From the IMG/VR virus record IMGVR_UViG_3300020165_000200, positions 1 to 20,244 of that record: DNA of 20,244 bases, one strand, 5' to 3'. The position numbers and the translations under genes were made by a program. Position 1 is the first letter of the stretch. Every line of letters begins with the position of its first letter. The DNA comes from a virus. Below the pieces are notes generated by a model. The model saw only the letters and a program-made list of their open reading frames with translations, made no database searches and was not told the DNA's origin. This document shows positions 3,621-8,550 of this stretch, piece after piece.

Positions 3621-3824
3621 TTACGCGCAACTTGGACAGACGAATAAAAACGCCGTTCTTCCCTGCTTGCTTATCTTAATCCTGTAATAATCTGTTACTG
3701 ATTCGGGTTTTTCGTTCCCGTTCTTATCCGCTTGAATCCCTATTATCTGATCGCATGACTCACATTTGAAAGTGTTAGCGGTTCTTTTTAGCATCTGCTT
3801 TTCGGGCAAGTTTTCGTAGTCCAT
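3621..3824 (-). CDS. Small zinc-ribbon-like protein, 67 aa
   Basis: The ATG at 3824 is chosen. It lies 8 bases behind AGGAG and overlaps the methyltransferase stop by one base (TGATG). A TTG three bases earlier is not needed. Cys pairs CESC (21-24) and CPSC (63-66) bracket a mixed-charge middle with an aromatic strand (TDYYRIKISKQGRTAFLFV). It resembles the zinc-beta-ribbon design and may be a nucleic acid binder. It is the last gene before the terminator at 3580-3608. Confidence 0.75.
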   Translation of the reverse strand: MDYENLPEKQMLKRTANTFKCESCDQIIGIQADKNGNEKPESVTDYYRIKISKQGRTAFLFVCPSCA

Positions 3825-4519
3825 CAAAATAGCTCCTGTTGTCTTGTTTCTTTATATATTCGCTCAATGCTTGCTTTGTAATAATCCTCATCTAGCTCAC
3901 AGCCTACAAACTCACCCATCTTGGCATAGTGTGCGCTGATTGCATTGCTACCACTGCCTAAATGCGTGTCAAGAATCTTCTGGCCTTCTTGCGCGTAATT
4001 TTTATAAATCCAGTTGTATAGCTTTACGGGTTTTTGTGTTGGGTGGATTCGTTGCTCTTTGTTTTTCATGTCACCCTGGAGCATGCCTTGCCATTGAAAT
4101 CTAAAGTTTCTTACTGCCGTTTTAAATGATGTGTATGCAAGTTCTGAATCTGCGAAATCAGTCGCCCCGTTTATCTTATCCCACACCAACCAAGATGAAC
4201 TGTTTGCGTTTGGTATATTTTGAATAAAATGATTAGCACCCCAAATTATCACGTTTTTTGAGACTCTTTTAAGTTCAATAAAGTAATTTTTATCGGGAGC
4301 CTTTAAGTCGTCGCCTGCAAAAGATTTGTAGTTTTTACTTACAGCTAATTTGCCTCTTGTTTTGTTAGTTTTGCCACTTTCCCCTATCCCATAAGGCGGA
4401 TCACAAATGCAAAGATCATAATAATTGTCGGGGGTTTGTTTTAAGATATTCATACAATCATCATTATAAATTGTGATATTATCTTGCTTATAAACTTTTC
4501 CTTCTGTCTTATAGTTCAT
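3824..4519 (-). CDS. N6-adenine/N4-cytosine-type DNA methyltransferase
   Basis: Transfers a methyl group from SAM to an exocyclic base amine. From the ATG at 4519 (behind AGGAGAGAGAA) the protein has 231 aa. DPPYG (motif IV) is at 40-44, HPTQKP at 159-164 and the SAM-binding DTHLGSGSN at 184-192. This catalytic-before-SAM order marks the beta class. A frame extending to 4573 lacks a better ribosome site. The last five residues, QQELF, look like a sliding-clamp-binding peptide. No restriction endonuclease is next to it, so it is an orphan enzyme, likely to protect phage DNA or mark it. The modified base and site cannot be read from the sequence. Confidence 0.93.
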   Translation of the reverse strand: MNYKTEGKVYKQDNITIYNDDCMNILKQTPDNYYDLCICDPPYGIGESGKTNKTRGKLAVSKNYKSFAGDDLKAPDKNYFIELKRVSKNVIIWGANHFIQNIPNANSSSWLVWDKINGATDFADSELAYTSFKTAVRNFRFQWQGMLQGDMKNKEQRIHPTQKPVKLYNWIYKNYAQEGQKILDTHLGSGSNAISAHYAKMGEFVGCELDEDYYKASIERIYKETRQQELF

Positions 4520-4701
4520 TTCTCTCTCCTGTTCTTTTTTATTACTTCGTTTCGATTTCTTACATGATAGCAAATATTCGCCGAGCTACATCTGAACTTC
4601 ATTGCTAATTGTGCATAGCTCCAAAATGCAGGATCTTCTTTCCTCAGTCGCTTAATCTCTTTTATTTCTGATTCTGTTATCTTATATCGCTTGTCATTCA
4701 T
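4516..4701 (-). CDS. Small HTH protein, 61 aa
   Basis: Sits between the two methyltransferase genes with ATGA overlaps at both ends. The segment ITESEIKEIKRLRKE, AFWSYAQLAMKF, then SSANICYHVRNRNEV has the three-helix look of a homeodomain-like or resolvase-type helix-turn-helix. The ends are basic. It may regulate the methylase operon or help target one enzyme. The fold is inferred from pattern. Confidence 0.7.
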   Translation of the reverse strand: MNDKRYKITESEIKEIKRLRKEDPAFWSYAQLAMKFRCSSANICYHVRNRNEVIKKNRREK

Positions 4702-5744
4702 AATTTATCCAACCATTGTGTTTTAACTTCGTTTGCGACTCTTGCGGTCATTAAAGGAGGTACTGACATGCCAATTAAATATTTTGGTCTTTCGTTTAAA
4801 AAGTTATAATCAGATGGGAAAGCACCTATTTTAATAAACTCATTATTATTCACTGAAACTGGTTCTGATTCAATTCCATACTCACTGTTTCCTGCTGTCA
4901 AAGTAACAAAAACTTTTTTTCTTATTGCTGTGTAATAAAATCCAAATGTGTTACCATTTTTAAGGGTAGTGTAGCCAGTTCTTTTAGAAGCGTTACTCCA
5001 ATGTTTTACATAAGTTGGGGATAGTTTTTTTCTATTTTTATCATTCTCTTCAATCTCTCCAAATGAGATTCTTTTATTATTAAAAATAAGTTTCAATTCG
5101 GGTTCACTTTGAAATAAATCAACAAAAGCCCCTTTATATAAATCCTTTCTAATTGCCGTAAAAAAAACACGCTTTCTTTTTTGTGGAACTCCCATATTAG
5201 AAGCATCTAGTAAAGTGTAGCTCACATAATAGCCTGCTTTATTGAACTCATTTAAAACTTTATTAACATAAGTTTGAGCCTCACCAACAAGCATCCCTGC
5301 GACATTCTCAGCGATAACCACCTTAGGCTTTAATTTCTCTGCTAAGTCAATAAAGTCAAAAAATAGAGTATCAAGAACCTGTTCAGCTTGTCCCTCTTTA
5401 AATTTCTTTTCCTTGCCCCAGTCTTTTTCACGATTACCTGCCATCGAAAAAGAACTGCAAGGCGGCGAACCATCAAGAATGTCTAGATTGTAAAGTTCTT
5501 CTGGTAGATCATCGCGAAGCTTAAAAGTTTGGATTCCTTCAAGAAAGTTAAATTTAGGATTATGATTCTCAACATAGACTTTATTCATCTTTGGGTCTAT
5601 CTCATTACACCCGATTACGTCAAACCCTGCGAGCTTGTAGCCCATTGTCGAGCCTCCACCGCAAGCAAAGCAAGAGAATACTTTTAAGCCGTTCTTTTCA
5701 GTTGGGTAATCGTCTTTCATTGTCCATTTATAATTAAGTTTCAT
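4698..5744 (-). CDS. C5-cytosine DNA methyltransferase
   Basis: Makes 5-methylcytosine with SAM through a covalent cysteine adduct. Motif I is FSCFACGGGSTMGYKLAGF at about 23-41. The catalytic cysteine is C96 in GSPPCSSFSMAG. ENV of motif VI is at 146-148 and QKRKR of motif VIII at 188-192. Motif X lies near the C-terminus (GMSVPPLMTARVANEV, 325-340). Length (348 aa) is normal and all key motifs are intact. The target-recognition segment is about 200-310. It starts at ATG 5744 behind AGGAG and overlaps the HTH gene by ATGA. No partner endonuclease is present, so anti-restriction is the likely role. Confidence 0.96.
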   Translation of the reverse strand: MKLNYKWTMKDDYPTEKNGLKVFSCFACGGGSTMGYKLAGFDVIGCNEIDPKMNKVYVENHNPKFNFLEGIQTFKLRDDLPEELYNLDILDGSPPCSSFSMAGNREKDWGKEKKFKEGQAEQVLDTLFFDFIDLAEKLKPKVVIAENVAGMLVGEAQTYVNKVLNEFNKAGYYVSYTLLDASNMGVPQKRKRVFFTAIRKDLYKGAFVDLFQSEPELKLIFNNKRISFGEIEENDKNRKKLSPTYVKHWSNASKRTGYTTLKNGNTFGFYYTAIRKKVFVTLTAGNSEYGIESEPVSVNNNEFIKIGAFPSDYNFLNERPKYLIGMSVPPLMTARVANEVKTQWLDKL

Positions 5745-6124: not shown

Positions 6125-6373
6125 TTAGTTTTGTTTTATTGGGATCTCTTTGTAAAGTGTCCCATCTTTTAATTTATCTATCCAAATATTTCTACACTCA
6201 TTAAAATGCTCTTCGCTTCTTGCCTGCTCGTGTCCCCATCTAACCCGATACCATTGAGGATAATTTGCGTAAAGATTGCTTTTAAGTCTTTTAATTTCAG
6301 AAAATAATTCATCTTGGATAAAATCTTTATCTTCCTCATCACAATCTTTTAGTACCTCAAGTAGTTCATTCAC
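6125..6373 (-). CDS. Hypothetical protein, 82 aa
   Basis: Starts at GTG 6373 in a GTGA overlap with the helicase stop, with GGGAG 6 bases upstream. An ATG nearby at 6369 is out of frame. The N-terminus is acidic (EVLKDCDEEDKDFIQDELFS). A Trp- and Tyr-rich middle follows (YPQWYRVRWGHEQARSEEHF). I do not recognise it. Coupling to the helicase gene suggests a replication accessory protein, as inference only. Confidence 0.65.
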   Translation of the reverse strand: MNELLEVLKDCDEEDKDFIQDELFSEIKRLKSNLYANYPQWYRVRWGHEQARSEEHFNECRNIWIDKLKDGTLYKEIPIKQN

Positions 6374-7740
6374 ATATAACTCCCTTCATCTTTCCACGAC
6401 TCATCAGATTTAAACTTTGTCGATGGCGCGTTATAAATACATTTAGCAAAGCCATCTCGACCGCTACGATTCTTTAATACAATTAAATAAGATTGAAGCG
6501 CGTTTAGCTCTTGTTCCTCGCAAGATACTTTTCCGCTTTCCTTCCATGTTCCCGTATTAGTCTTTCCGTAAGTTGATGCTTCCATTTGAGCAACCATTGA
6601 ACGGTGAATAGCTATAACCAAATGCGCGTCTTGTTCAATCGCTGAAGACTCTTGTAAGTTAGACAAATTAGGAAAATTATTCTCATCAGCGCCCCGATTT
6701 AACTGAGCCATTGGAACGATGCAGATATCTAACTCTTTCGCTATATCGGTTAAGACTCCGCTGATTTCCATGACTCGGTTACGTGGATCTTTTGAACCAT
6801 CATCACTCATTATCTTTTGCAGGTAGTCAACAAAAACAACTTCTGTTTTCGGCTGCCTTCTCATAATCTCCCGAATCATGCGCCTAACATTTGAAACCTG
6901 TCTGCGTGTTGTGTCCATGATTTCATATCTTGGATTAGAACGCAATTCACCAATCGCCTTTGTTGCTTCCTGTAAACCTTGAGCGCAATTAGCTTCAGCG
7001 AAGTCGGGGTTTATTTCACCCTCAATGTAAGCCAACCTTTCAAAACATTCTTTCTTGGTCATCTCAACAGAAACAAAACCGCAGAAAACACCATCATTAA
7101 CCATGTTATTCATAATTGACAAGCCTAATGCAGTCTTGCCGACCCTTGGACGCGCCCCTAAGACCACCATAGTACCTTTTTTAAAGCCTTTAATGAGTTT
7201 ATCGAGCCCATCTATGCCAGTAGGAATAAAAGCGCCTTGTTCACCATTACAACGATCTACCCAATCTTTAACAACTTCATTCAAAGCCTCGTCTTTCGTT
7301 TGTTCTTCATCAGTATTACTGAAAGCATCAATAGCGGTTATGGTTTCATTGGCGGTCAATAAAAGATTTTCCGTATCTTCTGCGGTGGTCTGTCCTTGGA
7401 TCAGATGAGCGCCTAACCTGGAAAGCTTGCCTTTTGCCCAACCTTCAAAAATTAGATGGTCGTAGGTTTTCCAGTTGTGGAACTCACCACCACAGGCGCG
7501 GATTTCTTGAATCGTTGTTGCTTGCGGGTAGATCTCTTTGAATTTCTTTGAAGCTGAAATAAGCGAAAGAGCGCCTTTCTTGACTTTCATCTCTTCCTTC
7601 CAAATTCTAAAAAAGGTATTTGTCTCTTCGTTAAAAAAAGGATTTTCAATACTCAAGGCTTTTGATTCCTCAAGTATTTCGGGGTTTCCTTTCAAAACTG
7701 ATAAAAGCTTATACCCTGCTTTTATTTGTTCGTTAATCAT
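6370..7740 (-). CDS. DnaB-like replicative DNA helicase
   Basis: A RecA-fold ring helicase that unwinds the phage replication fork with ATP. Walker A is GARPRVGKT at 195-203 and Walker B is VVFVDYLQ at 301-308, with D305 coordinating Mg. MAQLNRG (344-350) fits the conserved sensor region, and KNRSGRDG (423-430) lies where the arginine finger is expected. The N-terminal 150 residues look like the helical DnaB N-domain. Length (456 aa) is normal. It starts at ATG 7740, overlapping the initiator stop as TAATG, with GGAG 10 bases upstream. No primase was seen in this window, so host DnaG or a gene outside may serve. Confidence 0.95.
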   Translation of the reverse strand: MINEQIKAGYKLLSVLKGNPEILEESKALSIENPFFNEETNTFFRIWKEEMKVKKGALSLISASKKFKEIYPQATTIQEIRACGGEFHNWKTYDHLIFEGWAKGKLSRLGAHLIQGQTTAEDTENLLLTANETITAIDAFSNTDEEQTKDEALNEVVKDWVDRCNGEQGAFIPTGIDGLDKLIKGFKKGTMVVLGARPRVGKTALGLSIMNNMVNDGVFCGFVSVEMTKKECFERLAYIEGEINPDFAEANCAQGLQEATKAIGELRSNPRYEIMDTTRRQVSNVRRMIREIMRRQPKTEVVFVDYLQKIMSDDGSKDPRNRVMEISGVLTDIAKELDICIVPMAQLNRGADENNFPNLSNLQESSAIEQDAHLVIAIHRSMVAQMEASTYGKTNTGTWKESGKVSCEEQELNALQSYLIVLKNRSGRDGFAKCIYNAPSTKFKSDESWKDEGSYM

Positions 7741-8414
7741 TACAGAAAATCTCCTATTTGTCTTTGTTGCGGTTTTGGTGGTGTGTTGCTCACTATCTCA
7801 TCATTCCATGATTGCTGATTAAGATATGTATCGGGGTTTTTTCTAAATTGCTTATCCGGCTGAGATTCTTTATATTTCAAAACATGCTCAAAAATAGTCT
7901 TTCTTATCTCTTCGCTGAGTTTCTCATATTTAGATTCGCACTTGGGTTTGCCTGTCTTCTTGTCATACATTTCCCAAAACAATTCAAAAGGGTAATCGGT
8001 AGGTCTTTTGTTCTTTGTTCCTTGTTCTTTGTTATCTTGTTTATTTATACTAACAGTGCTTTGACTGTGCTTTGTACCATGCTTTTGCAGTGCTTTGTCT
8101 AGTGCTTTGGTAGGTGCCTTGGTATTTTTTACAATAGCAACTATGTTTGCAGAGTACTGATTCTTAGATGTTTCGATCATTTCAATGAATCCAAACTCAA
8201 CTAAATCTTTTAAGACTCCGCTATACGTTCGCCAGTTCTTAATTCCGATTGCTTCCATGACCATTTGAGAAGGGAAGCCGAACTTCTCTTTCCATCCTAA
8301 TCTGTTGCAATGCTCAATGGCAAAGAAATAGACTGCTGAATGACTTGGTTTAATTTTTTCGGGATTATCAAAACTGAAATCGAACCATGCGCGTGATAGC
8401 TCGTAGCCGTTCAT
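7740..8414 (-). CDS. Phage O-like replication initiator or helicase loader
   Basis: Likely opens the phage origin and delivers the helicase encoded directly downstream. Residues 5-90 have a winged-helix pattern (PSHSAVYFFAIEHCNRLGW, then YSGVLKDLVEFGFIEMIE). Residues 96-140 are a low-complexity linker rich in K, T, Q and N. Residues 141-210 form a second domain (FELFWEMYDKKTGKPK, later KNPDTYLNQQSWNDEI), a module I recall at the end of phage O and DnaD-type proteins. The linker is encoded by the iterons at 8055-8121, just as the lambda O linker carries ori. It starts at ATG 8414, 2 bases after the stop of the small RHH gene, and its own ribosome site is weak, so coupling is likely. Confidence 0.85.
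   Translation of the reverse strand: MNGYELSRAWFDFSFDNPEKIKPSHSAVYFFAIEHCNRLGWKEKFGFPSQMVMEAIGIKNWRTYSGVLKDLVEFGFIEMIETSKNQYSANIVAIVKNTKAPTKALDKALQKHGTKHSQSTVSINKQDNKEQGTKNKRPTDYPFELFWEMYDKKTGKPKCESKYEKLSEEIRKTIFEHVLKYKESQPDKQFRKNPDTYLNQQSWNDEIVSNTPPKPQQRQIGDFL
8006..8050. repeat. T-rich direct repeats next to iterons (candidate unwinding element)
   Basis: TTGTTCTTTGTT occurs at 8008-8019 and 8022-8033, with a looser third copy (TTGTTTATTTAT) at 8037-8048. The plus strand here is almost pure T with few C and G. It encodes the second half of the initiator linker. Beside the iteron cluster this could be the DNA-unwinding element of the origin, which is inference. Confidence 0.5.
8055..8121. 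repeat. Iteron cluster, candidate replication origin
   Basis: Six copies of AGTGCTTTG or near matches begin at 8055, 8066, about 8078, 8089, 8101 and 8113. The spacing is 11 or 12 bases, close to one helical turn. Three copies are exact (8055, 8089, 8101), 8066 reads TGTGCTTTG, 8078 is degenerate and 8113 reads GGTGCCTTG. The copies fall in all three reading frames of the initiator gene, so the pattern is not a by-product of a protein repeat. Such arrays bind an initiator protein, here probably the gene product itself. Confidence 0.75.
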
Positions 8415-8415
8415 A

Positions 8416-8550
8416 TTACTTGAACATGCCTTTGTAGCACTCTTGAACAGATTCCTTGATAATGAGCTTGATGCTCTTACCAGTTAGCTTCTTAATCTTC
8501 TTTACGTCATCAAGGAACTCTTTATCGACTTTTACAGATGCTTCTTTCAT
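8416..8550 (-). CDS. Minimal ribbon-helix-helix regulator, 44 aa
   Basis: First gene of the replication operon, starting at ATG 8550 behind AAAGGA. A short strand (EASVKVDKEFL) is followed by helix 1 (DDVKKIKKLTGK) and helix 2 (SIKLIIKESVQECYKGMF). This is the CopG/Arc strand-helix-helix plan at minimum length. Such repressors usually bind operators in their own promoter. The inverted repeat AAAGTATAGT / ACTATACTTT at 8586-8652 is a natural target. It ends 2 bases before the initiator gene. Confidence 0.78.
   Translation of the reverse strand: MKEASVKVDKEFLDDVKKIKKLTGKSIKLIIKESVQECYKGMFK

Follow-up and report, generated by a model that had tools for sequence, protein, structure and literature searches.

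The initiator gene and its neighbours

We looked at the replication region of a virus record of 20,244 bases, called here the window, which is the whole stretch of DNA that was analysed. On the minus strand, a replication initiator gene is followed by a gene for a DnaB-like replicative helicase that overlaps its end, and the initiator gene itself holds an array of short repeats, a small box and an AT-rich stretch. The features, all on the minus strand, are given below.

6370 to 7740, minus strand: DnaB-like replicative helicase gene (DnaB_C, E 1.5e-50; phrog_19, E 5.2e-60)
7740 to 8414, minus strand: replication initiator gene, an ORF of 224 aa with PHROG matches
Protein layout of the initiator: N-terminal winged-helix domain, about residues 1-95; iteron-coding linker, residues 97-123; stretch encoded by the AT-rich DNA; variable C-terminal domain
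8114 to 8121, minus strand: iteron 1, CAAGGCAC, 1 mismatch, frame 2
8102 to 8109, minus strand: iteron 2, CAAAGCAC, frame 2
8090 to 8097, minus strand: iteron 3, CAAAGCAC, frame 2
8079 to 8086, minus strand: iteron 4, AAAAGCAT, 2 mismatches, frame 1
8067 to 8074, minus strand: iteron 5, CAAAGCAC, frame 1
8056 to 8063, minus strand: iteron 6, CAAAGCAC, frame 0
8046 to 8051, minus strand: AGTATA box, which joins the iterons to the AT-rich stretch
8008 to 8045, minus strand: AT-rich stretch with an ACAA ladder, candidate unwinding element

The original prediction had placed the repeats in the linker of a helicase-loader-like protein. The linker location was right, while the protein is better named a replication initiator, as profile searches matched residues 48-219 to the replication initiation protein phrog_270 (E 1.1e-18). 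Its C-terminal half also matched the primosomal protein phrog_9327 (E 9.5e-6). A Pfam scan at E 0.1 returned just one sub-threshold, unrelated match, RepA_N (PF06970) being absent, and a PDB sequence search using the N-domain profile found nothing. An AF2 model made from 36 sequences gave a confident winged-helix N-domain (pLDDT about 81-97), whereas the linker had low confidence and the helical C-domain was less certain. The modelled N-domain matched the structures 4pql, 4pt7 and 5kbj with Z of 8.7-9.2 over 105-108 residues, Fur, LexA and other winged helices scoring alike, and Foldseek against RepA_N-like folds gave E of 0.05-0.1. We take these three structures to be the N-domains of staphylococcal RepA plasmid initiators, the library labels being just "DNA binding protein", "initiator" and "Rep-DNA complex"; one of the three was solved with DNA. 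The winged helix is a very common fold, so that a match of this model would not show common descent with RepA. The helicase is presumed to be the cargo of the initiator.

Two other observations were made around these genes. A 44-aa ORF on the minus strand (8416-8550, MKEASVKVDKEFLDDVKKIKKLTGKSIKLIIKESVQECYKGMFK), ending just before the initiator start, resembles by eye a small ribbon-helix-helix DNA-binding protein. Moreover, two DNA methyltransferase genes, one of the N6/N4 type and one of the C5-cytosine type, adjoin the replication genes (3824-5744, minus strand).

A six-unit array runs through the three frames of the linker

Six units had been reported on the plus strand starting at 8055, 8066, 8078, 8089, 8101 and 8113, and all of them were found there. 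Compared by eye with AGTGCTTTG, which is the plus-strand reading of the CAAAGCAC-like units in gene orientation, three are exact, and those at 8066, 8113 and 8078 carry one, two and three mismatches, respectively. In the direction of the gene, the cores start at gene positions 294, 306, 318, 329, 341 and 352. The steps are therefore 12, 12, 11, 12 and 11 bases and the frames 2, 2, 2, 1, 1 and 0, which bears out both the 11/12-base spacing and the use of all three reading frames. The array had also been described as helically phased. The spacing is indeed close to the helical repeat; strict phasing on one face does not hold, the mean step being 11.6 bp and 12 the commonest step. Against a turn of 10.5 bp, the iterons drift by about 1.1 bp per step, and successive sites rotate by roughly 35-40 degrees. 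We saw no dyad within the iteron unit, and the RNA structure of the segment gave no signal (z = 0.57).

A motif-free search for 8-mers with at most one mismatch at steps of 11 or 12 recovered the same six-unit chain. For comparison, the linker was recoded synonymously 5,000 times with the phage's own codon usage, leaving the peptide unchanged. None of the recodings contained a six-unit chain, and the longest had five units, reached in 9 of the 5,000. When the rest of the window was scanned on both strands, no chain of more than one unit was found. A chance origin of the six-unit chain is excluded.

The repeats are conserved as DNA

Relatives of the initiator were gathered by protein similarity from viral contigs and from bacterial genomes, the latter belonging to Chryseobacterium, Flavobacterium, Maribacter and other Bacteroidota; among named phages, the Polaribacter phage Danklef is the closest. 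Selection used the N-domain alone, and dereplication at 92% N-domain identity left 60 relatives. Of these, 54 kept a chain of four or more units, each with at most one mismatch to CAAAGCA, and 38 of the 60 used all three frames. The step series 12-12-11-12-11 was the commonest (20/60). Depending on the frame, the units translate as KA, K(H/Q) or QS.

The original prediction had proposed that iteron bases would be kept even where codons could vary, and both tests run on the homologues strongly upheld this. First, the lysine codons of the linker were compared over the 60 relatives: before alanine, AAA outnumbered AAG by 160 to 4, and before histidine or glutamine AAG outnumbered AAA by 111 to 4 (Fisher 3e-67, a value that overstates independence because the relatives share descent). 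Outside the linker, the trend was weak and reversed. Second, in aligned columns, lysine was AAA in 46/46 and 48/48 cases, alanine GCA in 50/50 and 50/50, and lysine before H/Q AAG in 48/48 and 48/48, whereas the leucine between units is coded freely (CTA 22, CTT 18, TTA 6) and the commonest codon of conserved N-domain columns averages just 0.61. This contrast between linker and N-domain columns of the same genes would not be explained by descent. A lysine codon that depends on the following neighbour is not expected if the protein alone were under selection. Codon usage in the linker is set by the repeat and not by the residue encoded.

The N-domain and the linker are common to the relatives, while the C-domain differs among them. 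This is as expected if the array and its reader form one module. When viral contigs were scanned for the DNA pattern alone, at least 89 of at least 119 placed matches fell inside this initiator family. Matches in three contigs (L063, L074 and L121) were rejected as origin arrays, as they fall in Lys/Ala-repeat proteins and look like ordinary low-complexity coding repeats.

Variants of the array were also noticed. One initiator linker (L050, 3798-4565) carries seven nearly perfect 12-bp tandem units encoding QSTG repeats, apparently a recent one-frame expansion. A subgroup (L036-L040) has two array blocks 43 bases apart with a reversed half-unit, GCTTTGAAAG, between them.

An AGTATA box and an ACAA ladder follow the array

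The T-rich 14-base direct repeats that had been reported next to the iterons were detected at 8008-8019 and 8022-8033. They have lower plus-strand coordinates than the iterons and are thus downstream in the direction of the gene, and each 14-base period corresponds to two steps of a finer ladder. On the plus strand, this ladder appears as TTGT at 8008, 8015, 8022, 8029 and 8037, five units at steps of 7, 7, 7 and 8.

Among the 54 array-bearing family members, 48 have AGTATA after the array, usually 12 nt past the start of the last unit. The 40 bases beyond it have an AT content of 0.82/0.77, whereas most other bins of the gene range over 0.65-0.74, and about 60% of them are A on the coding strand. 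Over the family, pairs of ACAA were observed 62 times at offset 7 and 73 times at offset 8, against 13.6 and 16.7 in synonymous recodings, and never at offsets 5, 6, 9 or 10. The ACAA ladder is conserved beyond protein need. In place and composition, the AT-rich stretch is as expected of an unwinding element, for which it is a candidate, the unwinding itself being predicted. The literature searched holds no named counterpart of a regular ladder step of 7-8 bases.

Two relatives carry the array in non-coding DNA

The original prediction would have been undermined by homologues that keep the linker and lose the DNA repeat. Such loss was found in two cases, and both carry an equivalent array in non-coding DNA. 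In the first (G001/L101), the linker retains a degenerate remnant only, with no exact two-unit match, and a six-unit array with steps of 12, 11, 12, 11 and 12 stands some 10.4 kb away in a non-coding segment, followed by AGTATA and an AT-rich ladder of AACAAAT repeats. In the second (G002/L148), the initiator N-domain is 48% identical and the linker has no repeats; its array is found in a non-coding segment, about 260 bp upstream of the initiator, and is followed by a stretch composed almost wholly of A and T. The pairing of linker-array loss with an equivalent non-coding array favours a DNA site. Together with the switching of codons with the repeat phase, these moves agree with the earlier claim that selection acts on the DNA and not on the protein. 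The array thus behaves as a cis-acting DNA site that accompanies the initiator in the genome, not as a part of the protein.

In another contig, which is prophage-like, an exact 11-bp tandem array of six to eight units (ACAAAGCAAGT) was found near a repressor-like gene (L106, 1560-1721). It was set aside because the stretch examined has no family initiator; it is possibly an operator or an unrelated origin.

GC skew at the locus

The cumulative GC skew had been expected to turn near 8.05 kb, and this expectation failed, as the window shows no turn at 8 kb. In 17 relatives and Danklef_1, no consistent skew change was seen at the gene (mean difference 0.0006, s.e. 0.019). The detrended skew of the whole Danklef_1 genome has its minimum at 29,913, within the initiator gene and near its end, and this minimum is shallow. 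The skew follows gene orientation and mosaicism, which makes it uninformative, and it speaks neither for nor against an origin.

Similar arrays in other phage initiator families

Nine other named phage initiators were examined for 11/12-base arrays. Six of them, all DnaD-like loaders, have four to six units at 11-base (some 12-base) steps in all three frames, likewise in the linker region and with cores that differ from those of this family. They belong to Lactobacillus Lrm1, Bacillus Pookie, Enterococcus EH-TP1, Pseudomonas KLEP17-4, Solobacterium SMO_1P and Listeria vB_LmoS_188. The recoding null never reached the observed count for Lrm1, the Solobacterium phage and vB_LmoS_188 (0/60 each), and did so in 3/60 recodings for Pookie, 5/60 for EH-TP1 and 8/60 for KLEP17-4, whose arrays are suggestive only. 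Of the other three, Vibrio 1.064 and Shewanella 3/49 had no such array, and that of Anoxybacillus A403 was weak. The N-domain profile compared with one DnaD-like loader family gave a probability of 0.7%, so no homology was detected between these two. In the Solobacterium phage (L268, 583-1130), the short replisome-organizer gene appears to stop inside the array, which would therefore straddle the stop codon. The rep gene of TP901-1 was rejected as an example of the same array type, its repeats standing at 15 bp and not at 11/12.

Altogether, these observations permit a broader reading, which we offer tentatively and rate at slightly less than an even chance. Phage initiator families of Bacteroidota, Firmicutes and Proteobacteria that are not detectably related in sequence may share one origin grammar, made of four to eight short sites spaced by one near-turn (11/12 bp) and running through all three linker frames, each family with its own core. 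The ACAA ladder of 7-8 nt in Bacteroidota would mark the strand to open, possibly as single-strand binding steps of the initiator, and the frame-shifting codon signature would find the origin from sequence alone.

A probable replication origin inside the initiator gene

What the analysis establishes is an array of repeats that is conserved as DNA and linked to this initiator family, its relocation to non-coding DNA in two relatives, and the conservation of the second ladder. We consider that 8008-8121 is very probably the phage's replication origin inside the initiator gene, where the initiator would bind, the AT stretch would open and DnaB would be recruited. Several initiator molecules would occupy the CAAAGCAC sites by means of the N-terminal winged-helix domain, with roughly one molecule to a site and the sites spaced by a near-turn of DNA. 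The resulting nucleoprotein array would strain open the adjacent AT-rich stretch, formed by the AGTATA box and the ACAA ladder, after which the C-terminal domain would recruit the DnaB helicase that the phage itself encodes in the next gene. This order of binding, opening and helicase loading is inferred from what is known of lambda, SPP1 and pSK41.

Plasmid iterons also act as operators and partition sites, so the array could instead serve the initiator or another phage protein in autoregulation, copy-number control or partition without being an origin. The array of L148, upstream of the initiator gene, lies where an operator could sit. In most relatives, however, the array lies some 300 nt into the gene and away from the promoter, the conserved AT-rich ladder usually follows it, and that of L101 is some 10.4 kb from the initiator; we regard a purely regulatory site as improbable. 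Still less probable is that a host protein of the DnaA or IHF kind reads the sites, the initiator acting only afterwards. Many iteron origins do require host DnaA, but over many contigs and Bacteroidota hosts the array goes together with this initiator family, and the cores differ in other initiator families, which is what one would expect of initiators that each recognize their own sites. Finally, the repeats could be a functionless by-product of the low-complexity linker (KALDKALQKH...), left by protein-level selection or slippage, since its peptide is conserved in the family and 12-base steps keep the frame so that protein repeats alone could yield some of them, but the codon and relocation tests already refute this, as codon choice switches with the repeat phase, 11-base steps shift the frame, synonymous recoding destroys the array and two non-coding arrays belong to initiators that lack one, which leaves it next to no credence.

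An origin within the initiator gene has several consequences. Bacteroidota phage replication origins are little known, and we found no described case of this in-gene origin in the literature searched. With the codon-phase signature, raw phage sequence can be searched directly for origins that lie inside genes. The relocated arrays suggest that an origin can part from its initiator gene, and an array placed where the two domains meet would account for the exchange of C-domains with the origin staying beside its reader domain. The 7/8-nt ladder gives a specific, testable prediction on DNA opening by the initiator.

Comparison with known in-gene origins

With the in-gene origins of lambda, SPP1 and pSK41, the locus shares an array between N- and C-domains, conservation at the DNA level and an AT-rich neighbour. 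The lambda initiator gene O contains, in its middle part, iterons with an AT-rich region next to them (PMC7466680). The parallel with O and ori-lambda drawn in the original prediction holds for the layout, as here too the array separates an N-terminal part, predicted to bind DNA, from a C-terminal one, and breaks down for the iteron sequence, the dyad structure and the spacing. Lambda has four 18-bp iterons at 20, 24 and 23 bp, whereas six sites of 8-9 bp, unrelated in sequence, stand here at 11/12 bp, about half of lambda's spacing; lambda-type 18-bp iterons about 20-24 bp apart are absent from this array. Lambda also uses a P-type loader, while the next gene here is a DnaB helicase. By tblastn, the initiator matched lambdoid O proteins weakly (E 5e-3 to 9e-3 over residues 90-206).

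The SPP1 gp38 system combines direct repeats with an AT-rich unwinding element, with one origin in gene 38 and a second, intergenic one about 13 kbp away (PMC6316719). By description, this oriL/oriR layout matches the in-gene and relocated arrays of this family, although SPP1 has two origins and G001, whose in-gene copy is degenerate, one good array. In pSK41, the Rep boxes are central in rep, and Rep has a winged-helix N-domain, a dispensable linker encoded by the origin and a separate C-domain (PMC5703833). Central in-gene repeats and a modelled winged-helix N-domain are likewise present here, but in a phage protein with a separate phage DnaB and no Pfam RepA_N match. A predicted Francisella phage origin also has repeats inside its initiator gene (PMC7924643).

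As far as the sequence can indicate, the locus is best read as an in-gene origin of the lambda, SPP1 and pSK41 kind. The layout is already known; what is different here is the iteron, a spacing half that of lambda, the AT ladder and the Bacteroidota setting.
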